Below, one piece after another: positions 3,191 through 24,624 of a DNA stretch of 51,314 nucleotides (position 1 is the first letter of the stretch; each line of letters begins with the position of its first letter). The DNA is from Komagataeibacter melaceti (GTDB lineage Bacteria; Pseudomonadota; Alphaproteobacteria; Acetobacterales; Acetobacteraceae), in contig NZ_QUWV01000077.1 in assembly GCF_003403295.1 (NCBI RefSeq), forward strand, positions 1-51,314, written 5' to 3'. The notes under the pieces are model-generated. The model was given only the letters and a program-made list of their open reading frames with translations. It had not been told where the DNA came from and made no database searches. A program made the translations under genes and the position numbers.

Positions 3191-3759
3191 TCGGGTAACG
3201 CAAACCGCCGGAATCCTGCGTGATGTCAGTTCGCACGGTCGCAAATGTTTCTCATATTATCGTAAAAAAGGTCGTAATCCAGACAGATATCATATACCCG
3301 GTCTTCTTTCCACAACATGATGTTTTTGTTAAAGACACAATGTGAATAAAAGAGAATTGTGATATTATATCGTTCTCGTAATTTAATTTATTGTTTTTAA
3401 AAAATATGCCTGAAGGTCATAAAAAGGTGTCTATTCTGCTTTGGCGATGGACGAAAACACATAGCGGAAAATAAATTATCGCGGCTGCCGCTTCTATGGA
3501 AAACAATTCAGACTTTTCACTTTGGCTGCCTGCACAAAATGATCGCCGGCATGCGTGGTAATACGGAGTACCATGCTGCCTGCTACAAGGATTGGCCGCC
3601 CTACCATTGCTCATAACGGCTGATCTCTTGCTAGCAGCGTCTCCCCCGTGACCTTATTTTCCGTGTTCAGGTTCACGTCATGTCTGCGTGTTACGAGAAC
3701 AGCGAGCATCGGCATGATGGCATGGCCAGGGTCGGGTGCCAGGAGGCCGGACAAATATT
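3191..3759. other. AT-rich intergenic region with shared promoter element
   Basis: About 570 bases without a supportable gene between the start of the second porin and the start of the small exported protein. The part next to the porin is AT-rich and should hold its promoter. The right part holds the repeated element at 3665-3682 and the leader of the next gene. Short reading frames here have no family resemblance or ribosome binding site. Confidence 0.6.
3665..3682 (+). promoter_or_regulatory. Repeated upstream element, copy 1
   Basis: GTTCAGGTTCACGTCATG lies 77 bases before the ATG at 3760. The first 16 bases recur exactly on the minus strand at 19498-19513, 76 bases before the start of the paralogous gene. 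In both places TGTTAC follows eight bases after GTCA. The element contains a 6-base direct repeat, GTTCAG-GTTCAC, as expected of an OmpR-type response regulator site. Regulator identity is inference. Confidence 0.55.
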
Positions 3760-4242
3760 ATGAGATCGATAGTGCATTACGGATTGGCAATCCTGATGAT
3801 AGTCAGCATATCCGGCTGTGTGGCGCGCGCCGAAACAGAAACAGAAACAAACGGTATTTGCGAGACAGTGGAACAGGGTATCCGGCTGCATGTCGACGGC
3901 ACGTATGGCGGATATCCCCATTCCGTCCTGCGTGATGCGGTGCTGGAGAGCGTAGCCTGTCCTTCGGGGAATGCAGAACTACGCGCTTTCCATACCATTG
4001 CGATACCGCCGCCCCATATGCGTATTGCCGTCATGCGCCCCATCGGGCAGGGCCAGCAGGGATCGCTGTCCATCATGCTGTTTTCACAAGGGCATTTCGT
4101 TATCGGCGAACGGATGTCCCTCTCTCCTTTCTCACGCACCCAGTCTCCTTTTTCGGTAAAGGCAGACATCAACCTTGCAACAGCACGCCTATGGGGCGAT
4201 CTGGCGAACCGGATCGCACAGGGGAAGCGTGCCATTCCATAA
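3760..4242 (+). CDS. Small exported protein of unknown function, paralog A
   Basis: About 160 residues. I chose the ATG at 3760 over the GTG at 3736 because AGGAGG lies at 3741-3746 and the paralog at 18945-19421 starts at the matching place. The N-terminus is a signal sequence (hydrophobic IVHYGLAILMIVSISG, then a Cys in SGCVA that could be a lipobox). The mature part has two Cys (GIC near residue 35 and VACPS) that are conserved in the paralog and could pair. Strongly shared blocks are GIRLHVDG, YGGYPHSVLRDAVL, GQGQQG, LFSQGHFVIGERMSLSP and a C-terminal RAIP. I do not recognise the family. It precedes a cytochrome b561 and a VIT-type metal transporter, while its paralog heads a metal RND operon, so a periplasmic metal-stress role is an inference from context. 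Confidence 0.72.
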   Translation: MRSIVHYGLAILMIVSISGCVARAETETETNGICETVEQGIRLHVDGTYGGYPHSVLRDAVLESVACPSGNAELRAFHTIAIPPPHMRIAVMRPIGQGQQGSLSIMLFSQGHFVIGERMSLSPFSRTQSPFSVKADINLATARLWGDLANRIAQGKRAIP

Positions 4243-4460
4243 TGGGGAAACACGCTCAGTCCATCACATTTGCGATCCGGTTTACCGAAAATGGCCGTAG
4301 CTTGCACATATTCTGCGATGTCATTAGGTCACGGGCGCCACACAGTTATCTGGATACAGGTTCCTTGCTCGCTGCCGGTGTCGTCGTGGGTTTACCATCT
4401 CCGTTCTTTTTTTACAGTCTGAACACCAACAGGCCGCAGGTATCGGCAAGGCGGCCAATC

Positions 4461-4478
4461 GTTCAGGTTCGCGTCATG
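4461..4478 (+). promoter_or_regulatory. Repeated upstream element, copy 3
   Basis: GTTCAGGTTCGCGTCATG differs by one base from copy 1 and has the same orientation relative to the next gene. It lies only 10-22 bases before the possible starts of the cytochrome b561 gene, much closer than the other two copies. It may act as a repressor-type site, or transcripts may begin very near the start codon. It does not carry the downstream TGTTAC seen at the other two. Confidence 0.4.
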
Positions 4479-4488
4479 TTTGAGTGAT

Positions 4489-5070
4489 ATGATCGTTCGG
4501 ATGAAATACAAATCTGGCCTTTCCCCAGCACGTTATGACGCACCAACAATCATTTTCCACTGGGGATGCACGGCCATTATCATGTTGCAGTTCGCAACCG
4601 CGAATTTATGGGGCCTGTTCCGGAACCCGCTACACCATCAACTGGTGGTGACCCACCTGACGGCAGGCATGGTACTGAGCGTTCTGTTTCCCGCACGCCT
4701 GCTATGGCGACTAGGCTGGGGGCGGCAGATCCGCGCCGCCGATCGCTGGCTTGATGCCATGCTGGCGCGCTACGTGGAATACAGCCTGTATGGGCTAGTC
4801 CTGCTGGAAATCCTCCTTGGGTATCTGTGGCGATGGGGCAATGGGCAGGCCATGAGTTTCCTGTCCATCCAGATCATGCCGCCCTTTGGCAGGTTTCCGA
4901 CATCGACAGTCGGCATTCTGCACTGGCTGCACCAGTGGAATGGCTGGCTGATCATCGTGCTTGCCACGGGTCATGCGCTGGCCGCGTGTTTTCATTACTT
5001 CATTCTCCGGGACAATGTTTTTCAGAGAATGCTGCTGACAGGGAATGTATCCGATGAATATGGAAAGTAA
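4489..5070 (+). CDS. Cytochrome b561 family protein
   Basis: A membrane-bound di-haem b-type cytochrome of the bacterial b561 type, which passes electrons between quinol and a periplasmic partner. Four hydrophobic segments are visible: about residues 17-40 (with IIFHWG), 52-70, 95-115 and 145-165. His residues in FHWG, the HHQ/THLTAG region, LHWLHQWNGW and the ATGHALAACFH segment are candidates for haem axial ligands. A TTG at 4480 and an ATG at 4501 are alternative starts, and ribosome-binding signals are weak for all. It overlaps the VIT-type gene by about 17 bases, so they are probably cotranscribed. Coupling to metal redox state (for example iron reduction) is inference. Confidence 0.8.
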   Translation: MIVRMKYKSGLSPARYDAPTIIFHWGCTAIIMLQFATANLWGLFRNPLHHQLVVTHLTAGMVLSVLFPARLLWRLGWGRQIRAADRWLDAMLARYVEYSLYGLVLLEILLGYLWRWGNGQAMSFLSIQIMPPFGRFPTSTVGILHWLHQWNGWLIIVLATGHALAACFHYFILRDNVFQRMLLTGNVSDEYGK

Positions 5071-5767
5071 AATACCGCTGCGCCCCAAAGAAATCCACGC
5101 GACCTCCCGTCTGGGCTGGCTGCGGGCCGCTGTTCTGGGGGCGAATGATGGTATCCTGTCAACATCCAGCCTGATCATCGGCGTTGCCAGCGCCCATGCG
5201 ACACAGGGGAGCATCCTGCTGGCTGGAATTTCCAGTCTGGCTGCCGGGGCCATGTCCATGGCCGCGGGGGAATATGTGTCCGTTAGCTCGCAGGCGGATT
5301 CTGAGAAGGCTGACCTCGCCCGCGAAAAAAAGGAGCTTGGCAGTAGCTGGGACGCTGAAGTGAGCGAACTGGCCGGGATATACCGTCAGCGTGGCCTGGA
5401 TGATATTCTGTCACGCAAGGTTGCCCTTCAGCTCATGAAGCATGATGCACTGGGGGCGCACGCCCGCGATGAACTCGGCATTTCGGACGCGACTGCGGCG
5501 CGTCCGGTACAGGCCGCCTTTGCATCGGCTAGCGCATTCTCTTCCGGTGCCATACTGCCCGTGCTGGCAGCCCTGCTGTCGCCAGCCAGCGTGGTCTCGT
5601 GGAGTGTATCCGCTGTATCCCTGATTGGTCTGGCGGTATTGGGAGTCGTGGGTGCGCGTGCAGGTGGGGCCTCACCATGGCGTCCGGCAATGCGGGTCAT
5701 ATTCTGGGGCATCGTAGCGATGGCCGTGACGGCTGCCATCGGCCGGATATTCGGGGTACAGACATAA
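5054..5767 (+). CDS. VIT1/CCC1-family iron/manganese transporter
   Basis: About 237 residues, typical of bacterial VIT1-family membrane proteins that move Fe2+ or Mn2+ out of the cytosol. Diagnostic parts are LGANDGILSTSSLIIGVASA in the first membrane helix (near residue 28), AAGAMSMAAGEYVSVSSQADSE with the conserved acidic/polar metal-path residues, and a cytoplasmic Lys/Glu-rich helix (KADLAREKKEL) ending in the KHDALGAHARDELGI segment. Three further helices fill the C-terminal third. I chose ATG 5054, preceded by GGGA at 5041. The frame is open to 5045. Overlap with the cytochrome b561 gene suggests translational coupling. Iron or manganese is a family inference and not visible in the sequence. 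Confidence 0.88.
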   Translation: MNMESKIPLRPKEIHATSRLGWLRAAVLGANDGILSTSSLIIGVASAHATQGSILLAGISSLAAGAMSMAAGEYVSVSSQADSEKADLAREKKELGSSWDAEVSELAGIYRQRGLDDILSRKVALQLMKHDALGAHARDELGISDATAARPVQAAFASASAFSSGAILPVLAALLSPASVVSWSVSAVSLIGLAVLGVVGARAGGASPWRPAMRVIFWGIVAMAVTAAIGRIFGVQT

Positions 5768-10880: not shown

Positions 10881-11291
10881 TTATCCTGAACCACTAGTGA
10901 GATCCAGTAAGCTCATCCCATCGGAAAATGCCATAAATGCATCAACGGCCTGTACTATGAGATGGCGAGACTGACAAGCATTGCCCAGTATACACTGGTT
11001 ATTGCCAGATGAGTGACAGGCACCAGGGGATTCTTTTTCAGTTTCCATGAGCCGCATAATATGACCGACGTTTATGTTTCTGGCAGACACAGCCAGACGG
11101 ATGCCACCAGTACGTCCCCGGGTACCTTGTACGATCCCGGCATGACACAGGTGTTGTACAACTTTCACAAGATGATTGTGCGAAATGCCATGCAACTCAG
11201 TGATGTTCCTGACGGTAACACGCGAATCAGGATTACACGCCAAGTGGATCAACACACGGAAAGCGTAGTCGGTACGCAGCGAAAGACGCAT
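10881..11291 (-). CDS. Rrf2-family transcriptional regulator, NsrR-like
   Basis: About 136 residues from the ATG at 11291, which begins with the family signature MRLSLRTDYAFRVLIHLA. The winged-helix region includes the recognition segment around ITELHGISHNHLVKVVQHL, followed by GIVQGTRGRTGGIRLA. Three cysteines spaced C-x7-C-x5-C (CHSSGNNQ, then C, then C) lie where Rrf2 proteins such as NsrR and IscR bind an iron-sulfur cluster, so it may sense nitric oxide, iron or redox state. An upstream frame open to 11333 is less likely. It stands alone, downstream of the RND operon on the same strand. Confidence 0.85.
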   Translation of the reverse strand: MRLSLRTDYAFRVLIHLACNPDSRVTVRNITELHGISHNHLVKVVQHLCHAGIVQGTRGRTGGIRLAVSARNINVGHIMRLMETEKESPGACHSSGNNQCILGNACQSRHLIVQAVDAFMAFSDGMSLLDLTSGSG

Positions 11292-11458
11292 CAACCCCAC
11301 CACCCATAGGCACGTGTTGACTGATTTTCCCAAGCAGCCTCTCAGAATATTGCCAACGGGCTGCTACCAGGCAACCGTGACGCAGGGCATTCGTGACATA
11401 GGGGAGTAGAGTACGCAAAATGGAGTTGCCTGCGCGTCTGTTCCTCTACAGTCATGAA

Positions 11459-12796
11459 TTAGGTTACCTTCGAGTTTGGAAAGGTGACACACACACCAAA
11501 TCCTCTGGCAGATCCTGTAAGTGGGGAACGTAAGCGCAGAGTAACGTCCATTTGGGTAGCGATATTACTGGCAATGGCGAGACCCAGGCCACTGCCATGA
11601 TTACCGGTCCCGCCGCGCACGAATGGGCTAGTCAGCCGCTGGAATATGCCGGGTGGCAGCGCGGGGCAGTCATTGGTGATGTCGATTCCACCATCTGGTA
11701 GCACGGCCACCCGCACGGGCATATGGTGCCCTCCATGCAGCAGGGCGTTTTCAAGCAGGTTGCGCAACATGATGCCGGTCGCATCCATGTCACCATGTAC
11801 GAATATGTGGTGAATCCCGTCTGGCGCGATGACAATGCCCTGCCCGTCACACGGATTATGCCCAAGATCATCGACAAGGACACGCACTACGGTCATCAGG
11901 TCGAAACGGTCGCGCCGGAAAGCGACGCCGGACGAGGCGCGGGAAAACTGCAGCAGTTTTTCCACCGTGCGGCCCAGCCTGCGGGTCCGGTCGGCAATGA
12001 CCTCCACCCGCCGGCCCGTATCCGAACCCGCCGGCATCAGTCGGCCCAGCATCTGTACCTGCGCCAGAAGGGCTCCAAGCGGGTTACGCAGTTCATGCGC
12101 AGCGCTTGCGGCAAAGGCGCGCTCGGTAGAGAGCGCTGCCTCCAACCGCGCCAACAGCGTATTGATCGAGCGCTGGATGGAGACTAGTTCGTCAGGGAGA
12201 TCAAGGGGGGGAATGGGCTGAAGGTTGCCGCTGCCACGTGCGCGCATCTCGTCATGCAGCAGGTCCAGCGGGCGCAGGGCGCGCCGCACGATCAGGCGCA
12301 CCAGCCACCAGATCACCGGCATGAAAAGCAGCATGGGCACGACAGAGATCAGCATCGCGCGCCGGACGGCCTCGCGCCGGTGGAAGGTCGGTTCCCCCAC
12401 AAGGACACGGTATTTCTCCGCCACGGGTGACGCGACATAAACGCGAAAATGCGGGACGTTGGCAAACCCGGTCCGCCAGTTGCTGACAAATGCGGTTTGC
12501 GGGGCATTCTGGGAACGCAGCACGACATGTCCACTCACGTCCACGACCTGATAGGCCAGTGTGCGCGGTCCGGCCTCGGGCAGCCAGGCGATGGATGACG
12601 CCGCACCCGGTTCGTGCAGTCGCGTGGCCACCGCCGTCTGCAATCGCTCGGCCACTTCCTGCAGCGAGTTATCCAGCCGTTCCGTCACCTCGTAGCGGGT
12701 AAATCCGCCCACGGCGATACTGAGGATCAGCAGCCCCAGAATAACGACCATAAGTACGCTGCTGATGATGCGGGTGGACAGGCTCCAGCTTTTCAT
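11459..12796 (-). CDS. Sensor histidine kinase of the RND metal efflux operon
   Basis: A 445-residue kinase: transmembrane helix about residues 10-31, periplasmic domain about 32-147, second helix about 148-170, HAMP region, His234 in the phospho-acceptor box SAAHELRNPLG, then NLLENALLHG (N box) and GSGLGLAI (G box). The start overlaps the stop of the regulator gene by four bases (ATGA), showing translational coupling. It is the last gene of a six-gene minus-strand operon with an RND pump. CzcS/CusS-like kinases sense periplasmic metal ions. The short sensor domain has two His but no obvious metal-binding cluster, so the ligand is unknown. Confidence 0.9.
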   Translation of the reverse strand: MKSWSLSTRIISSVLMVVILGLLILSIAVGGFTRYEVTERLDNSLQEVAERLQTAVATRLHEPGAASSIAWLPEAGPRTLAYQVVDVSGHVVLRSQNAPQTAFVSNWRTGFANVPHFRVYVASPVAEKYRVLVGEPTFHRREAVRRAMLISVVPMLLFMPVIWWLVRLIVRRALRPLDLLHDEMRARGSGNLQPIPPLDLPDELVSIQRSINTLLARLEAALSTERAFAASAAHELRNPLGALLAQVQMLGRLMPAGSDTGRRVEVIADRTRRLGRTVEKLLQFSRASSGVAFRRDRFDLMTVVRVLVDDLGHNPCDGQGIVIAPDGIHHIFVHGDMDATGIMLRNLLENALLHGGHHMPVRVAVLPDGGIDITNDCPALPPGIFQRLTSPFVRGGTGNHGSGLGLAIASNIATQMDVTLRLRSPLTGSARGFGVCVTFPNSKVT

Positions 12797-13464
12797 GAGC
12801 CGTTCTTTCCATCCAGGCAGTAACCACGACCGCGTATGGTCCGGATCACGTTATTGCCCAGCTTGCGCCGCAGGCGGCTGATGAAGACCTCGACAGTATT
12901 GCTGTCCACTTCGCGATCCAGCGCATAAAGGACCGTGTCGATCTGCTGGCGCGAATAGATCCGGCCCGGACTGCGCGAGAGCAGTTCCATGATGCTCCAT
13001 TCGCGCGCGGTCAGGTCCAGCCGCTCGCCATCACGCGTTACGGACCGGTTCTCCCGGTCTATCGTAATCTCTCCCACGCGGCAGTGCGCCTGCCTGCGCG
13101 GCGATGCATACCGGCGGGCTACCGCCGCAATGCGGGCCACGAGTTCATTCAGGTCATAGGGCTTGACGATATAATCATCCGCCCCTTCGGACAGACCCGC
13201 GATACGGTCACTGATCTGGTCTTCTGCCGTGGTGATGAGGATGGCGATGTCAGACGATGTCCGGCGGACCTCACGCAGCAGGTCGCGCCCGCTTCCATCG
13301 GGCAGGCCAAGGTCGAGCAGTATGAAATCATAATCCACCGTTGCCATGGCCGCGCGTGCGTCCTCCAGCGTCGTGAACCAGTCCACGGCATGCCCGTCCA
13401 GACCCACGCGCTCCTGCACCGCCACACCCAGATCGTATTCATCCTCGACAATAAGGATACGCAT
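12793..13464 (-). CDS. OmpR-family response regulator of the RND operon
   Basis: A 223-residue regulator with a receiver domain (LIVEDEYDLG, phospho-acceptor Asp51 in LLDLGLPDGSG, Lys101 in VKPYDL) and a winged-helix effector ending in TIRGRGYCLDG. It resembles the CzcR/QseB/PmrA group. The ATG overlaps the stop of the RND pump gene (TGATG), and its own stop overlaps the kinase start. Being inside the operon it probably controls, it is the natural candidate to bind the direct-repeat element found upstream of this operon (19498-19513) and at two other sites in the window. That link is inference. Confidence 0.9.
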   Translation of the reverse strand: MRILIVEDEYDLGVAVQERVGLDGHAVDWFTTLEDARAAMATVDYDFILLDLGLPDGSGRDLLREVRRTSSDIAILITTAEDQISDRIAGLSEGADDYIVKPYDLNELVARIAAVARRYASPRRQAHCRVGEITIDRENRSVTRDGERLDLTAREWSIMELLSRSPGRIYSRQQIDTVLYALDREVDSNTVEVFISRLRRKLGNNVIRTIRGRGYCLDGKNGS

Positions 13465-16400
13465 CAGTCCTGATCCTTTTCCCGCATGACCCGGGCATAC
13501 AGTGATGGCAGCACAAGCAGGGTCAGCAACGTGGACGTGACCAGCCCGCCGATCACCACACTGGCCAGCGGGCGCTCGACTTCCGCGCCCGCACTTTCGG
13601 AAAACGCCATGGGAAAAAAGCCAAGGCTGGCGACAAGGGCTGTGGCCATGACGGGACGGAAGCGGGATTCCGCGGCCGCAAAGGCCGCCTGTGCCACGGC
13701 CATTCCCCGTGCCCGCAGGGCTGCGATCTCACTGACCAGCACCACGCCATTCAGGATCGCCACGCCAAACAGCGCGATGAAGCCGATCCCCGCCGAAATG
13801 CTGAACGGCATGCCGCGCAGCGTCAGCGCCACGATGCCGCCGGTTGCCGCCACCGGCAGGTTGACGAACACCAGCAGCGCGGGCCGCACCGCGCCAAACG
13901 CCACCACCAGCAGCGCAAAGATCAGGCCAAGGGCAACGGGCAGCACGATTTCCAGCCGCCTTGTGGCTGATTGCAGGTTACGGAACTGCCCGTCCCACTG
14001 CATGGTATATCCTGCGGGCAGTTTCACCTCCCGCGCCACACGGGCCTGCGCTTCGGCCACGTAACCGGCCAGGTCGCGCCCGCGCACATTGGCCTGCACC
14101 ACCATGCGCCGGCGGACCCGGTCACGGCTTATGCGCGGCGGGCCATCGACTTCATGCACATGCGCCACCTGTGACAGCAGGACATTGCCCTGCCCGTCCA
14201 TGCGCCGGACCTGCAGCGCGGCGACGGCGGCGGCAGATGTAACAGTGCGGGGGTCAAGACGCACCTGCGTGCCGATGATGGCATTGTTCACGATGACCGG
14301 CCTTGTACCGACATGCCCGCCAACCGCCTCCACCGTATCCAGAATGTCCTGCACCGCCACATTGCGGCTGGCGGCCTGCGTGCGGTCGATATCGGCGACG
14401 ATCAGCGGTACGGTGCCATCACCCGCCGCCGCGACGTCTGCCGCTCCCTTCACCCCCGACATGGCTGCCACCACCCGGTCACCCAGATCGGCCAGCGTGG
14501 TCAGGTCATCGCCAAAGATCGACACCGCGATCTGCGTGCGCACGCCAGACAGCAGGTCGTCCATGCGCATCTGCACCGGCTGGCTCCACGAATACAGCGC
14601 ATCGGGCAGTTCGCGCCGCAGGGTGTCATCCATCGCGGCCACAAGCCCCGCCTGCGTGCGGGCGGTCTTCCATGTAGAGGGCGGGTTGAGGAAGATGAAG
14701 CTGTCGGTCTCGTTCACGCCCATCGGGTCGGTCGGAATGGCGGATGTGCCGGTATTGCTGACCACGGAGCGCACTTCGGGAAAGCGGCGCAGGATCTGTT
14801 CCTGCTTCGTGACCGACGCCAGCACGGTGTCGAGCGAGGCCGAGGGCAGCCGCGTGGTGGTGACCGCCAGCGCCCCTTCATCAAGCTGGGGAATGAACTC
14901 ACCGCCCAGCCTCATCGCAAGCCCCGCTGAAAGGGCCAGCACCACCAGCGTACCGCCAAACAGGATGCGTGGATGGGTTTCCCCCCATGTCACCATATGG
15001 GTATAGGGCCGGCGCAGGAAGGCAATCAGCCGCGTATCACCCGCAGGCCGCACGCCCCCCAGCGCAAGGGCGGCCAGAACGGGCACGCAGATGAAGCAGT
15101 ACGCCAGCGACGCCAGCAGCGCCATGATGACCGTCTGCGCCATGGGGCGGAACATGTGCCCCTCGATCCCCTGCAGGGTCAGGATCGGCAGGTAGACCAT
15201 GATGATGACCAGTATGGCAAACCCCACCGGGCGCATGACCTGCTGCACGGACGAGATGACCAGCGGGATGAATTCCGCTTCCGGTTCTTCCTCCCGCCGC
15301 GACAGCACATGTTCGATCACCACCAGCGAACCATCGACAATCATGCCGAAATCGATTGCGCCAAGGCTGAGCAGGTTGGCCGAGATACCGAACTGCCGCA
15401 TGCCCGCCATCGCGCAGACAAGGGCAACCGGAATGACCGAGGCAATGACAAGGGCGGCCTGCCAGCTCCCGATCACCACCACCAGCACCCCCACCACCAG
15501 CACGGCGCCCATGACCAGGTTGTCACGCACGGTGGCGATGGTCTGCCCGGTCAGGGTGGCGCGGGTGTAATAGGGTTCGATCGTGACACCCATGGGCAGC
15601 GCCTGCCTGATGCCCGGCAGGGCGCGGTCGATCGCGGCAAGCGTTGCGTTGGAACTGGCCCCGCTTTCCATCATCACCACGCCGATCACGATCTCGCCCT
15701 GCCCGTCACGCGTTACCGCCCCCAGACGGGTGCGCGCGCCTGCGCGCACGCGGCCAAGATCGCGCAGCCGCACGGCGGACCCATCGGGGTTGGTGCGCAC
15801 GGCAATGTTGCCAAAGTCGGCCAGGCTGCCGACCAGCCCGCGTCCGACCACGCTCTGCTGTTCGGCATGGTGCGTGATCCATCCGCCACCGGATGCCGCG
15901 TTGCCGGCATCCACCGCACGATAGACCTCGCCTACCGAAAGGTTGCTGCCGATCAGCCGCGCGGGGTCCAGCGTCACCTCATAGGTTTCTTCCGCCCCGC
16001 CATTGACGTTGACATCCACCACACCGGGTACAAGACGCATCTGCGGCACCACGGTCCAGTTCATGATGCGGTTGAGTTCCATGAGCGAACGCCCCGCGCC
16101 ACGGATCTGGAACTGCATGATTTCGCCCATGCCAGTGGCCAGCGGCCCCATGCTGACGGTAATGCCGGGCACGGATATGTTTGAACGCGCCTGCTGTATG
16201 CGCTCGTTCACGCGGGTGCGGTCCAGGTTGATGTCGGTATCATCGGCAAACTGCACATACACCACCGAGACGCCGCCGCGCGATACGGAACGCAGGTCAG
16301 TCATGCCGGGGATTCCGGTCATGCTGGTCTCGACGGGAAAGGTGATGAGTTTTTCCACTTCCTCCGTCGCAAGGCCCGGCGCCACGACCGAGACGAGAAC

Positions 16401-16538
16401 CTGCCGGGGCGAAATATCCGGCACCGCTTCCACCGGCAGGCCCAGGACAGTCATGATGCCCGCGGCCAGCAGCAGGCCAAGACCGCCCAGCACCAGCATG
16501 CGCGCGCGGATCAGGGTGGCAAGGTAGGCATGTGCCAT
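13464..16538 (-). CDS. HME-type RND heavy-metal efflux pump, CzcA-like
   Basis: A 1024-residue inner-membrane proton/metal antiporter, the size of CzcA/CusA pumps. It has the N-terminal helix followed by VEAVPDISPRQVLVSVVAPGLATEEVEKLITFPVE, two large periplasmic domains and twelve membrane helices. In helix 4, near residues 393-412, AIDFGMIVDGSLVVIEH carries the D-F-G-x3-D-G...E pattern typical of divalent-cation HME pumps (Zn, Co, Cd, Ni) rather than the monovalent Cu/Ag type. The usual final Asn is replaced by His. It is coupled by overlapping stop/start codons to the membrane fusion protein before it and the regulator after it. Which metal is exported cannot be settled from sequence. Confidence 0.93.
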   Translation of the reverse strand: MAHAYLATLIRARMLVLGGLGLLLAAGIMTVLGLPVEAVPDISPRQVLVSVVAPGLATEEVEKLITFPVETSMTGIPGMTDLRSVSRGGVSVVYVQFADDTDINLDRTRVNERIQQARSNISVPGITVSMGPLATGMGEIMQFQIRGAGRSLMELNRIMNWTVVPQMRLVPGVVDVNVNGGAEETYEVTLDPARLIGSNLSVGEVYRAVDAGNAASGGGWITHHAEQQSVVGRGLVGSLADFGNIAVRTNPDGSAVRLRDLGRVRAGARTRLGAVTRDGQGEIVIGVVMMESGASSNATLAAIDRALPGIRQALPMGVTIEPYYTRATLTGQTIATVRDNLVMGAVLVVGVLVVVIGSWQAALVIASVIPVALVCAMAGMRQFGISANLLSLGAIDFGMIVDGSLVVIEHVLSRREEEPEAEFIPLVISSVQQVMRPVGFAILVIIMVYLPILTLQGIEGHMFRPMAQTVIMALLASLAYCFICVPVLAALALGGVRPAGDTRLIAFLRRPYTHMVTWGETHPRILFGGTLVVLALSAGLAMRLGGEFIPQLDEGALAVTTTRLPSASLDTVLASVTKQEQILRRFPEVRSVVSNTGTSAIPTDPMGVNETDSFIFLNPPSTWKTARTQAGLVAAMDDTLRRELPDALYSWSQPVQMRMDDLLSGVRTQIAVSIFGDDLTTLADLGDRVVAAMSGVKGAADVAAAGDGTVPLIVADIDRTQAASRNVAVQDILDTVEAVGGHVGTRPVIVNNAIIGTQVRLDPRTVTSAAAVAALQVRRMDGQGNVLLSQVAHVHEVDGPPRISRDRVRRRMVVQANVRGRDLAGYVAEAQARVAREVKLPAGYTMQWDGQFRNLQSATRRLEIVLPVALGLIFALLVVAFGAVRPALLVFVNLPVAATGGIVALTLRGMPFSISAGIGFIALFGVAILNGVVLVSEIAALRARGMAVAQAAFAAAESRFRPVMATALVASLGFFPMAFSESAGAEVERPLASVVIGGLVTSTLLTLLVLPSLYARVMREKDQD

Positions 16539-17689
16539 CAGTCTGCATCCATTCCGGCCAGACCGATGACGGAACGCAGGGCAAAACTACCATGACCCAC
16601 CACCGGCTCGCCCCCTTTCAGGCCGGAACGCAGCACTGCCTGTCGCCCGTCATCCAGTGCCACATCGACCACGACCGGCCGGTAATCCGTCGCGTTCACC
16701 CGCACGAACACGACGTTGTGCCCGTCAATCTGCTGGATGGCTTCGGACGGCACGACAAGACCCGCCACGCTGTCACGCTGGGCCAGTGCAGAATCCAGCA
16801 CCATACCGGGCACCAGCGCGCCAGTGGGGTTGGACACACGGCTTATGACCCGGACCAGCCCGGTCAGGGAACTGGCCATCCCGTCCACCGTATCGATACG
16901 GGATGTAAACGGGCCGTCTGCCGTCTGCGTTACCTGCTGGCCGCCTGGTGCGATCCGTGCCGCCTGGTCTGGCGGGATGTCGGAAACAAGCCATATGCTG
17001 GACAGATCCGCGACGGTGGCCACATCCATGCTCGGGTCCACATCACCCGCCACTGACGTACCGATCACCTGCACCATGCCATTGACAGGGGAGATCAGGG
17101 TTGAGGTTTCATCTTCCGCGCCCTGACTGTCCTGCTCCGATGAGGAATTGAACTCCTCGGCAAAACGGTGGCCCAACGTGTCCACATCCGCCTGGCGTGC
17201 GCGCATGGTGGCATCCGCCTGTGCCAGCACGTCCTGCCTGCGGCGCAGTTCGGCCAATGATATGCTCTCGCCAGCCAGGGCCTTAGCCCGCTGCACCGCA
17301 CCTGCCGCATCGGTCCGGGCCGCAATGGCGGCAGCAAGCGCTGCACGCATCTGAACCGCCTGCAGGCGCGCAACATGCAGGGAATGATCCTGATAGCGCA
17401 CCAGCGCCTGCCCCCGCTGCACGGATGCGCCGGGCTGTACCAGTACTGCCAGCACCTTGCCACTGCCGGCGGGGTGGATATGCACGACCTGCGTCGTATC
17501 GGGCATGACCCGGCTCATGACCGGCAGCATGGGTGCCATACGACCCGGCGTGGCCGTGACGATGGTGACCCCTTCATTGGCAACCGCCGCCCCGTCCAGC
17601 TTCACGATCGGGGGCAGTGCCCCCTCCCCGGCATGGGCAGGCAGGGCGGGCAGGCCGAGAAGAAACAGGATGGAGGCAATCCGCTTCAT
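16538..17689 (-). CDS. RND membrane fusion protein, CzcB-like
   Basis: About 383 residues from the ATG at 17689, which overlaps the stop of the outer-membrane channel gene (ATGA) and starts a clear signal peptide (MKRIASILFLLGLPALPAHA). It is the periplasmic adaptor joining the RND pump to the outer-membrane channel. It shows a lipoyl half motif (GKVLAVLVQPGASVQRGQALV, about residues 78-98), a long helical hairpin rich in Ala/Arg/Gln, the second lipoyl half (STLISPVNGMVQVIGTSVAGDV) and beta-barrel segments. It lacks the His-rich N-terminal metal-binding extension of some CzcB proteins. The stop overlaps the pump start. Confidence 0.88.
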   Translation of the reverse strand: MKRIASILFLLGLPALPAHAGEGALPPIVKLDGAAVANEGVTIVTATPGRMAPMLPVMSRVMPDTTQVVHIHPAGSGKVLAVLVQPGASVQRGQALVRYQDHSLHVARLQAVQMRAALAAAIAARTDAAGAVQRAKALAGESISLAELRRRQDVLAQADATMRARQADVDTLGHRFAEEFNSSSEQDSQGAEDETSTLISPVNGMVQVIGTSVAGDVDPSMDVATVADLSSIWLVSDIPPDQAARIAPGGQQVTQTADGPFTSRIDTVDGMASSLTGLVRVISRVSNPTGALVPGMVLDSALAQRDSVAGLVVPSEAIQQIDGHNVVFVRVNATDYRPVVVDVALDDGRQAVLRSGLKGGEPVVGHGSFALRSVIGLAGMDAD

Positions 17690-18933
17690 GGCACAACACC
17701 TGTTGCAATCAGCATGCGGATGCTGGCGACATGCCATTCCACCTCAGCCCGGGCACTGGCCAGTCGGGTATTGGCGGCCGCCTGCCGGGCGGCAAGCGCC
17801 GTATCCACACCGGCTTCGCCTACCCGCCAGGCCCGTTCCTGCGCCTGGGCCCGCTTTTCCATATTCTCTGCGGCACTGCGGGTAGCCTGTCGTGCCGTGG
17901 TGGCCGCGATCAGGCGTTCACGCACGCGCATCATTTCCAGATGCACCATGCGCCGCGCCTGCGTTTCCTGACTGGTGGCCGTGGCCAGGCGGTTGCGGGC
18001 TTCGGACATGATGGGCGTGTTACGGACCTCGCTGGGCAGGGGGATGCTGAAATTCACGCCCACACGATCATCCCACGGGCTGCCGTACTGCTTTTCATGA
18101 ATGGCGTCCACGCCGATTTCCGGGTTGGGCATGAACGAACGGCGCGCCAGTTTCATGTTCGCTTCGGCGGCTTCCACATTGCGGTGCGCGACCTTTATGC
18201 GGGGATCGTTGTCTTCCATGTCGCGCGGGCTGACAAAACGGGCCTGCGTCACGTCGCCGCCACCATAACGGCTCAGGTCAGGCACAACCGGGCGCCCCAG
18301 CAGCACCTCCAGGGCCGTAGTCGCGTTCTGCGCTTCCTCCTGTGCCAGGGCCAGTTCATCGCGCGCGTTCTCCATCGCCGCCTGCGCCACCTGCCCGTCG
18401 GTCGCGGCCAGTTCGCCCCCCTGCACCGCGCGCGTGGCGCTGGCGGCCATGCGCGCGGTCGCATCATACAGGGTGCGGGCCACATCCACCCGGCTGCGGG
18501 CGATCAGGGCGGCGGCGCCTGCATCAAGCACCCGGATGGACAGTGCCATGTGTTCGACATTGAGCTGTTCATCAATCGACGCGGCTTCCGCGCTGGCGAC
18601 CTGTTTCGTGGCGCTGCCCTGCCCCGGCAGCCATAGCGGCACCGACACGCCGCCCTGATAGGTTGTATAGCCTTCGTTACTGCCCAGCATGTGGTCATCC
18701 ATGTATTCACCCGACAGGGTCGGGCCGCCGGCAAACCATGACCCGGCAGCGCTGGCGCGGGCGCGGGCGGAATGATGGCCGACCTGAAGTTCGGTGCGGA
18801 CGGGATCGATCGCCCAGGCCATGCCGACGGCTTCATGGAAGGATGGGCCAGGGCGGGCGTCCTGGGCCAGGGCCATCCATGGCAGGGCACAGGCCATGGC
18901 GATCGACACGATGGGGGGGATGGCGCGGTTCAT
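17686..18933 (-). CDS. RND outer membrane channel, CzcC/TolC-like
   Basis: A 415-residue outer-membrane factor forming the exit duct of the tripartite pump. A signal peptide covers about residues 1-23 (cut after MALAQ). Two long Ala-rich helical repeats with many Arg/Glu follow (around SARARASAAG and, in the second half, RNVEAAEANMKLARRSFMPNPEIGVD), as in the OEP family. The sequence ends in a helix-rich segment and IATGVVP. It is the second gene of the operon, 11 bases after the small exported protein, and its stop overlaps the adaptor gene start. Confidence 0.88.
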   Translation of the reverse strand: MNRAIPPIVSIAMACALPWMALAQDARPGPSFHEAVGMAWAIDPVRTELQVGHHSARARASAAGSWFAGGPTLSGEYMDDHMLGSNEGYTTYQGGVSVPLWLPGQGSATKQVASAEAASIDEQLNVEHMALSIRVLDAGAAALIARSRVDVARTLYDATARMAASATRAVQGGELAATDGQVAQAAMENARDELALAQEEAQNATTALEVLLGRPVVPDLSRYGGGDVTQARFVSPRDMEDNDPRIKVAHRNVEAAEANMKLARRSFMPNPEIGVDAIHEKQYGSPWDDRVGVNFSIPLPSEVRNTPIMSEARNRLATATSQETQARRMVHLEMMRVRERLIAATTARQATRSAAENMEKRAQAQERAWRVGEAGVDTALAARQAAANTRLASARAEVEWHVASIRMLIATGVVP

Positions 18934-18944
18934 GCTTCAGGCCA

Positions 18945-19421
18945 TCATGGAATGGCGCGACCACCATGGCTGATCCGTTCGGCCAAATCGCTCCACAGTC
19001 GCGCCATCAGCAGATTGATCTCGGACGTGACCGAAAACGGGGACTGCGAACGCGCCAGGGGCGAAAGGGACATGCGTTCCCCGATGACAAAATGCCCCTG
19101 CGAGAACAGCCGGGCCGAAATCGCCCCCTGCTGCCCCTGCCCCATGGGCCTCGTAACGGAAATACGCAGGTGTGGCGGCGGGTCGGCAATGAGACCGAAG
19201 ACATGCCGTTCAGCTTCATCAGAGGGGCACGCCACGCCCTGCAGCACGGCGTCACGCAGTACGGAATGGGGATAACCCCCATACATGCCATCTACATGCA
19301 AACGTATACCATGCCGGACCGTCATACATATGCCCTCTGTCCCATCATCCGCCCAAGCGGCCGACACCCCTAGGAAGAAAATACAGGCTGCATACAGACT
19401 ATCCCGCACTATCCTTTGCAT
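18945..19421 (-). CDS. Small exported protein of unknown function, paralog B
   Basis: About 158 residues from the ATG at 19421 (an upstream frame is open to 19448). A signal peptide (RIVRDSLYAACIFFLGVSAAWA) precedes a mature domain closely matching the protein at 3760-4242. By eye about 94 of 129 aligned residues from GIC to the C-terminal RAIP are identical. Both Cys (GIC, ACPS) are kept. Unlike paralog A, no Cys sits at the signal cleavage site, so this copy is probably soluble in the periplasm. It is the first gene of the RND operon, 11 bases before the channel gene. Position suggests a periplasmic accessory of metal efflux, but no function is recognised. Confidence 0.78.
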   Translation of the reverse strand: MQRIVRDSLYAACIFFLGVSAAWADDGTEGICMTVRHGIRLHVDGMYGGYPHSVLRDAVLQGVACPSDEAERHVFGLIADPPPHLRISVTRPMGQGQQGAISARLFSQGHFVIGERMSLSPLARSQSPFSVTSEINLLMARLWSDLAERISHGGRAIP

Positions 19422-19497
19422 AATAAGCGTCTGTTCCCCGGCGTACATAAAGTTCCTGCCATCACGACGACGACTTTCTGACGGTAACAGAGAAACC

Positions 19498-19513
19498 TGA
19501 CGTGAACCTGAAC
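19498..19513 (-). promoter_or_regulatory. Repeated upstream element, copy 2
   Basis: Read on the minus strand this is GTTCAGGTTCACGTCA, identical over 16 bases to the element at 3665-3680. It ends 76 bases before the ATG at 19421. TGTTAC follows at the same distance as in copy 1, and the leaders share TGATGGCA and end in TATTATG-like sequence. Most likely it is the binding site of a response regulator, possibly the one encoded in this operon. Confidence 0.55.
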
Positions 19514-23619: not shown

Positions 23620-24624
23620 ATGCGCTGTTTCTACGTGTTGCCATTTCTCCTGCTCATGCACGCGCCAGCGCGAGGACAGCAATGCTCTGTGTCTACTCCG
23701 ATTGAGTCCAGGAGCGACACCATAGGGCCGACCCTGGAACATGATGATAAAGGTAGGACCGATGCAGTCGCCCACCTTGGGATCGCAGGGGCCAACATCG
23801 AAAAACTACCCGATCTCCACGGGTTCGAAGCTGGCATCGCCCATACCCGGAACGAACTCCTCGTCTTTTTCGCTCCGGAAAGCCATGCAATCGTGCTTAG
23901 CGGCACGATGATTCCGGTACCCTACGACACCCTACGTTCACTGGCCGGGTCGCGCGCCCACGATCTCGCACCGGTCGATGGCATCAGGGGAATGTTTGTT
24001 CGGGCAGATAATCGTTTTCAGGTCGTCTATGCGACCCCGGATGGCAAGGCAGCAGTCGCGGCCCGGATGTGGGGTGCCGCTGGACAGGACATCACGAAAG
24101 ACCAGATCAGGGGCATTCCTGGAGCCGTCCCAGAAATCAGTATCTCTGGCGCTTCATCCGACGCTAACGAACAGTCCGAGTTCCAGGGGCTCTCGGGAGG
24201 CCTTATAGGGATACCTTCCGCCCCGGAAGTCATCATGTTCATAGACCCGCAATGCATTTACTCGATGAAGGCGATGCATATCCTTCAGCCCGCAATCGAT
24301 GCAGGGAAAGTTCGCCTGAAAATAGTCCCGCTGTCATTGCTTGATTACGAGGATAACGGCGCCAGTACCGTCAATGCGAGAGCCATGCTATCGCTCCCGG
24401 CAAACGAGATGGCACAAGCGTGGGTCAACGGTCGTCTAAACCCGGGATTGGCTGCACCTGAACCGGATAGTGGGGAGAAGCTTGCCCGTAATACCCGGAT
24501 TGCACGGCAGATAGGGCTCACAGGGACACCAACGTTCGTCTGGATGCACCGCAATGGCGGGACCGGCCGGCTCGACGGCGTTCCCACGGATGTCGCCACA
24601 TTTCTCACCTCGGTCTCGCAATGA
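23620..24624 (+). CDS. DsbC/DsbG-like periplasmic thioredoxin-fold protein of the secretion cluster
   Basis: 334 residues with a signal peptide (about 1-19) and a good GGAG site before ATG 23620. The N-terminal half resembles the DsbC dimerisation region; the C-terminal half is a thioredoxin fold: EVIMFIDPQCIYSMKAM near residue 207, the cis-Pro loop GLTGTPTFVWMH near residue 302, and GRLDGVP. The active-site pair is CIYS in place of CxxC, so only one of the two catalytic Cys is present. IncI plasmids carry a related protein, TrbB. With a single Cys it may act as a chaperone or a glutathione-type reductase. Stop and next start overlap (ATGA). Confidence 0.75.
   Translation: MRCFYVLPFLLLMHAPARGQQCSVSTPIESRSDTIGPTLEHDDKGRTDAVAHLGIAGANIEKLPDLHGFEAGIAHTRNELLVFFAPESHAIVLSGTMIPVPYDTLRSLAGSRAHDLAPVDGIRGMFVRADNRFQVVYATPDGKAAVAARMWGAAGQDITKDQIRGIPGAVPEISISGASSDANEQSEFQGLSGGLIGIPSAPEVIMFIDPQCIYSMKAMHILQPAIDAGKVRLKIVPLSLLDYEDNGASTVNARAMLSLPANEMAQAWVNGRLNPGLAAPEPDSGEKLARNTRIARQIGLTGTPTFVWMHRNGGTGRLDGVPTDVATFLTSVSQ

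Follow-up and report, generated by a model that had tools for sequence, protein, structure and literature searches.

Why would two groups of metal-related genes on one stretch of DNA each carry a copy of the same small exported protein? The stretch analysed here (the window, 51,314 nucleotides of Komagataeibacter melaceti) contains two such open reading frames, at 3760-4242 on the forward strand and at 18945-19421 on the reverse strand. We use the working name family X for this pair of proteins, X_A and X_B. We tentatively propose that X may be a dedicated exported accessory that acts in trans on a CzcCBA-type pump in acetic acid bacteria. The features of the window discussed below are as follows.

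3665..3685 (+): promoter box of X_A, a response-regulator-type direct repeat (TCAGGTT-N4-TCATGTC) with a -10-like element ~8 bp downstream; its position upstream of X is kept in relatives
3760..4242 (+): X_A, 160 aa; its signal peptide has a lipobox (Cys20) followed by an AxA site (BLASTP, dN/dS)
4246..4459 (+): stretch without blastn match to Novacetimonas hansenii, occupying the place of TolC-MFP-RND-RR-HK in relatives
4461..4481 (+): second box copy, promoter of b561-VIT (pattern search)
4501..5070 (+): cytochrome b561-type protein (Ni_hydr_CYTB; start per annotation of homologous plasmid)
5060..5767 (+): VIT1-family transporter (start per annotation of homologous plasmid)
11459..12796 (-): HK2, czc-operon sensor kinase resembling QseC/PmrB/CzcS (scores below NCBIfam cut-offs)
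12793..13464 (-): RR2, OmpR-type response regulator, QseB/PmrA-like (below NCBIfam cut-offs), presumed box reader by co-occurrence
13464..16538 (-): HME-RND pump of the CusA/CzcA family (TIGR00914, above cut-off) with DFG...D motif, divalent type (motif rule from PMC10127602, excerpts)
16538..17689 (-): periplasmic adaptor, MFP (length per annotation of homologous plasmids)
17686..18933 (-): TolC-family outer-membrane factor (family match)
18945..19421 (-): X_B, 158 aa, first gene of the czc operon, without lipobox (BLASTP)
19493..19513 (-): third box copy, promoter of X_B and the czc operon (pattern search)

The neighbours given in a preliminary description of this DNA were correct for both copies. 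X_A is followed by the b561-type protein and the VIT1 transporter, and X_B is the first gene of a czc-like RND operon, with TolC 11 bp downstream and then MFP, RND, RR, and HK. The RND protein reaches 890.5 bits against TIGR00914 (cut-off 701.45), which places it in the CusA/CzcA family, and it carries the DFG followed by Asp that is the divalent-cation pattern of RND proteins (PMC10127602, excerpts). The same genome contains two more genes for RND proteins of the CzcA type (95% and 94% identical), on two contigs of exactly 3824 bp each (C66 and C139, loci L092 and L093), and both genes are cut by the contig ends. The window also encodes at 23620-24624 an exported DsbC/G-like protein with CIYS instead of CxxC, and this gene lies upstream of apparent conjugation genes (both judged by eye).

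Sequence and predicted structure of X

X_A and X_B are identical at 97 of 140 aligned residues (BLASTP, single comparison, E 2e-72), so the similarity first counted by eye (94 of 129) holds. The shared Cys pair pointed out at the same time (C34/C67 in X_A, C32/C65 in X_B) is invariant in all 20 aligned X sequences and probably forms one disulfide. The statement that the proteins belong to no recognised family also stands: neither matches Pfam or NCBIfam at E<=10 (HMMER filters on), and an X profile finds no PDB chain sequence at E<=10. When 20 X relatives were scanned singly against the family libraries, only single-member matches appeared, with E values of 0.097 or worse. In the plasmid records examined, X is called hypothetical.

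Both proteins start with an N-terminal signal segment. X_A contains a canonical lipobox (Cys20) plus an AxA signal-peptidase-I-like site after residue 24, and X_B contains the AxA site only. The signal peptides of 7/20 aligned X sequences contain a strict lipobox, [LVI][ASTVI][GAS]C (A-locus 4/6, outgroup 2/2, B-type 0/7), and in the A copies the signal-peptidase-I-like site follows it. The preliminary description had noted a possible lipobox Cys in X_A and none in X_B, so that one copy may be anchored and one free. X is predicted to be an exported protein, either lipid-anchored or free. Three His residues are nearly invariant in 18 core X sequences (H42 in 17, H52 in 16, and H84 in all 18), and they are replaced by Ala, Ala, and Tyr in two outgroup sequences that still head czc operons. 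No Met-rich or His-rich segment is seen in X.

AlphaFold2 models were obtained for X_B (pLDDT 85.3, pTM 0.75) and for an outgroup X that is 28% identical (pLDDT 74.0, pTM 0.66). Both show a beta-alpha-beta-beta-beta-alpha order, with one extra helix after the first in X_B. Foldseek searches of the PDB with both models gave nothing at E<=0.001 (best E 1.8e-3). Among the weak matches, hibernation-factor domains come first, followed by DUF330/PqiC, TolB, and, for X_B, LptE; TM-scores normalised by query are 0.17-0.42 over the best 50 matches per model. The strand and helix order of the HPF N-domain is beta-alpha-beta-beta-beta-alpha, and DUF330/PqiC, LptE, and the TolB N-domain have a similar order, but at such weak E values the likeness is not evidence of kinship with X. 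We therefore did not accept a fold relationship with the ribosome hibernation factor or with PqiC/LptE, as all E values are above 0.001; a weak match does not prove that the folds differ either.

A common promoter box and one operon type

A 21-bp direct repeat, TCAGGTT-N4-TCAKGTT, occurs at three sites in the window, before X_A, b561-VIT, and X_B, each at a fixed distance from a -10-like element. No site was found in 100 dinucleotide shuffles of the window. A search of the 3.49 Mb genome with <=3 mismatches gave these three sites and no other (a reversed control pattern gives 1 site). In 51 distinct sites from related loci, the -10-like TA follows at fixed spacing (T in 46/51, A in 48/51); these sites were picked by the pattern (<=2 mismatches), and only the downstream TA is independent of it. 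Sites for activators of the OmpR family are expected to have this arrangement, with a box in place of the -35 element plus a -10 element. RR2 probably reads the box, because two Acetobacter loci (L040 and L068) have the box and RR2, and RR1 was not found in them. The Acetobacter-group locus L065 has RR2 plus an RR1-like gene.

For 41 of the 43 X genes in our survey of Acetobacteraceae, a box (<=3 mismatches) is found in the 400 bp upstream; L066 has none, and L028 lacks upstream sequence. An exact 19-mer is present in 21/397 genomes of the family, 18 of which have X. In the other three, the box adjoins b561 or sits between VIT and TolC. It does so at L089, L090, and L091, in genomes where no X was found, so the regulon extends beyond X.

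The preliminary description regarded the surroundings of the two copies as otherwise unrelated, which the comparison with relatives does not support. Relatives contain a complete operon with the order box-X-TolC-MFP-RND-RR2-HK2-b561-VIT (L073, L074, L075, L095, and L096), in which the b561 box has 3 mismatches in L073, 3 in L075, and 2 in L096. In Novacetimonas hansenii (L074), this full operon is preceded by the same OprB-type porin pair that flanks X_A, so that the porins of locus A, X, and the entire pump operon are joined in one place. The X protein of N. hansenii is 74% identical to X_A and 61% to X_B. The DNA alignment between the window and L074 covers the porins and X, ends at window position 4245 (L074 position 7367), and resumes at window position 4460 (L074 position 14879), at the b561 box. 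Because of this gap, locus A is most simply read as the full operon minus TolC-MFP-RND-RR2-HK2. Locus B keeps the genes from TolC to HK and lacks b561-VIT, and X is kept in both loci. It therefore appears that a single type of operon was reduced in a different way at each locus, and we rejected the reading of unrelated loci joined by a common protein on gene order and DNA alignment. As X precedes TolC in the Acetobacter operons (L040 and L068) and also in a distant outgroup (L063 and L064), X-TolC is likely the ancestral order. Trees of X by themselves do not prove the collapse of locus A: B-type X sequences are grouped (FastTree 0.985, ultrafast bootstrap 76), and the branching of the A-locus, N. 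hansenii, and Acetobacter sequences has deep supports of 39-74. In the B operon, an Rrf2-type regulator (window 10884-11363) follows HK2 where relatives have b561-VIT, and an Rrf2 gene also follows HK2 or RR2 in L076 and L087.

The gene order of the window recurs in records of conjugative plasmids, which suggests a plasmid origin for this DNA. The regulon in this plasmid-like window is, as read from its genes and boxes, split into a B module (X_B, the pump, and the two-component system) and an A module (X_A, b561, and VIT).

Distribution, gene contexts, and selection

A profile search found X in at least 24 of 397 sampled Acetobacteraceae genomes, in 4 of 102 genera (the best 9 candidates per genome were scored). 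In a sample of 385 genomes at the class level, X occurs only in the genome of the window, among the matches listed (best 9 candidates per genome). From these two samples, family X appears to be narrow and tied to acetic acid bacteria. X is also present in 22 of 72,556 plasmid records (15 Acetobacter and 7 Komagataeibacter), at 29 plasmid places, with a single copy in each Acetobacter pasteurianus record that has X; the annotated plasmid regions that we compared are 6 records and L125.

The family survey gave 43 places of X (at least 43), which include near-identical plasmid copies and are not independent. The gene downstream (within 1.5 kb or to the contig end) is TolC in 26, b561 in 13, an RND remnant in 3, and MFP in 1. 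Where b561 follows X, VIT comes next in all cases except one cut by a contig end. Two of the RND remnants are followed by RR2, and the third (L072) is a 44-residue fragment only. A CobW-like GTPase gene (by eye) lies at 9753-10982 of L072, near an orphan X with its own box. The single MFP case, L066, has the order TolC-X-MFP-RND.

The database and gene-neighbourhood searches thus found no named family and a metal-operon context for the survey copies. The preliminary description had proposed a dedicated, uncharacterised exported partner of metal handling. This proposal gains from all 43 survey copies lying in czc operons or their remnants and from the family being unnamed in Pfam and NCBIfam, and it loses from one plasmid copy outside these contexts. 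This copy, a third X on a Komagataeibacter xylinus plasmid (L125, 8893-9411), is 48% identical and starts just after an OprB porin; a box is absent, and the surrounding 9 kb contain neither czc genes nor b561 or VIT. Among the survey places and plasmid regions compared, it is the one homolog without such genes nearby, and it may represent a second context of family X.

All 24 genomes with X have an RND gene. At E<=1e-200, RND genes were found in 94 genomes (best 2 candidates per genome). X is present in 21/21 of the genomes whose RND is >=83% identical and in 3/73 of the others, with the 83% cut chosen after the gap between 83% and 78% had been seen. In 20 czc loci from genomes without X, no X was found (best E 2.8); TolC was recognised in 15 of these loci, and a relaxed box lies near TolC in 5. 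Given these X-less loci, the box and the pump are more widespread than X, which seems to have been added in some lineages.

The pump has been lost with X kept in locus A, in L067 and L069 (RND fragments and then RR2-HK2), and in L072; X was the search key, so retention of X after pump loss is an ascertained pattern. The pump has been kept with X lost in L085 (stop codons), L086 (deletion), and L087 (mostly gone), and each of these genomes has an intact X elsewhere. In L088, b561-VIT with a box remains without X. These loss patterns fit a protein able to act in trans. Across six A loci without a pump, X_A has dN/dS values of 0.075-0.214 (15 pairs, dS 0.39-1.08), next to 0.047-0.115 for VIT and 0.106-0.252 for b561 in the same comparison. 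X_A is under purifying selection without an adjoining pump.

Possible roles of X

In the model that we tentatively favor, excess divalent metal would be sensed by HK2, RR2 would bind the box, and X_A, X_B, the pump, and b561-VIT would be switched on together. The exported X, anchored or free, would then modulate or restrain the assembled CzcCBA pump in trans from within the periplasm. If X acts in trans, a copy far from the pump could stay useful, and pump-side copies could decay where another exists. This model is favored by the 43/43 survey contexts, the RND gene in every X genome, the presence of X by RND identity (21/21 against 3/73), a box for which no site beyond these three promoters was found in the genome, its place before 41 of the 43 X genes, the intact X elsewhere in the L085, L086, and L087 genomes, the dN/dS of X_A, and the quenching of CzcCBA by CzcI from the same position.

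X would thereby occupy the operon place of CzcI, but its alpha/beta domain is unrelated and probably held by one disulfide. CzcI of Cupriavidus metallidurans quenches CzcCBA and thereby prevents the over-export of essential cations (PMC10127602, excerpts). CzcI is small and exported, its gene lies directly upstream of czcC on a plasmid and is transcribed with czcCBA, and it acts on pump activity (same excerpts). X, likewise small and predicted to be exported, shares this position in the 26 of 43 genes directly before TolC. Unlike CzcI, which has 115 aa, is His-rich, and matches DUF2946 weakly below cut-off, X has a mature alpha/beta domain of ~135 aa without His clusters and is also found without an adjoining pump. 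Homology with CzcI was rejected (one CzcI sequence; BLASTP E 10 over 8 residues, hhalign probability 0.6%). Several observations speak against a pump accessory. Pumps of this type exist without X: 15 czc operons of Acetobacteraceae have a recognised TolC and lack X. X has neither the His clusters of CzcI nor a sequence or profile match to it. A kinase or transporter partner would fit equally well where X stands beside RR-HK without a pump (L067 and L069) or beside b561-VIT. The L125 copy follows a porin, away from any box, czc, b561, or VIT gene, and the link between the box and RR2 is one of co-occurrence, with an RR1-like gene also present in L065.

The main rival, which we consider a real though improbable alternative, is that X is a periplasmic sensor or feedback arm of HK2-RR2, binding the HK2 sensor domain from its own promoter under RR2, as DbfQ does for DbfS. 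CpxP is such a feedback arm of CpxA, and the DbfS/BqsS group resembles QseBC; the best-scoring models of HK2 and RR2 are QseC/PmrB and QseB/PmrA, below cut-off. X and RR-HK share one operon in the full versions, the box is conserved at the X promoter, and in L067 and L069, where the pump is lost, X has stayed next to RR2-HK2. DbfQ itself is small and exported, and its gene immediately precedes dbfRS; it binds the DbfS sensor domain with a Kd of 30 nM and biases it to phosphatase mode, and BqsS is termed a DbfS ortholog (PMC12714742, excerpts). X resembles DbfQ in being small and exported and in preceding a two-component system that would also control it (DbfQ features from the same excerpts), but DbfQ is a PepSY protein, and none of 20 X sequences matches PepSY at E<=1. 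X is also tied mainly to the pump operon. Further points against this rival are that locus A keeps X without an adjoining RR2-HK2 and that in L066 X sits between TolC and MFP.

The remaining alternatives appear less probable. We regard it as unlikely that X is an outer-membrane-side helper, such as an assembly or gating lipoprotein for beta-barrel or TolC-type proteins. The L125 context and the frequent TolC and porin neighbours (TolC directly downstream of 26/43 X, OprB porins upstream at locus A) keep this role under consideration, along with the strict lipobox in 7/20 sequences, outgroup included, and the weak fold matches to DUF330/PqiC, LptE, TolB-N, and LpoB, all with E above 0.01. However, the B-type copies beside TolC in Komagataeibacter have no lipobox (0/7), ribosome-hibernation-factor domains rank above these matches in a search with none at E<=0.001, and three close operons retain TolC with X broken or gone. 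CusF feeds CusBA, and a metal chaperone or buffer that feeds the pump in this way would account for the three His residues as well as for the operon position and regulon. We find this slightly harder still to credit, because the His residues are not kept in the outgroup proteins that head czc operons, which makes the argument from conserved ligands weak, and the only invariant Cys residues are the one pair, probably a disulfide, without a Met-rich or His-rich segment. CusF, CzcE, and CnrX are periplasmic accessories of HME-RND systems from named metal-binding families, whereas searches of the family libraries and of PDB sequences gave no credible match to X. That X_A is a leftover of operon erosion without present function seems very improbable: erosion would agree with the collapsed look of locus A and with the decay of X elsewhere, but X_A shows low dN/dS across the six A loci and has its own conserved promoter box.

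Returning to the pump accessory, X could, more speculatively, be the first member of a new class of periplasmic proteins that govern HME-RND efflux in trans and are themselves controlled by a response regulator. An eight-gene operon would have been split on a plasmid by reciprocal gene loss into export and b561-VIT modules, each with its own X, and X, not the pump, would be common to both arms. We hold this broader reading to be doubtful. For one model, CzcI in Cupriavidus, it has been described how RND metal pumps are restrained so that essential metals are not exported. With an unrelated protein in the CzcI position, two copies of it, and a regulon of three promoters and one box, food bacteria would offer a compact system for that question, and X_A, the copy remaining where pump genes were lost, may be a separate part of metal control. 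No title or abstract opening in our literature searches treats X. The excerpts of a K. xylinus E25 transcriptome study do not mention X and report that a czc/cus-like cluster, cusCBASR, is down-regulated with ethanol, its activity in plain medium being ascribed to metal stress (PMC6667682, excerpts). A plasmid of K. xylinus E25 contains X.
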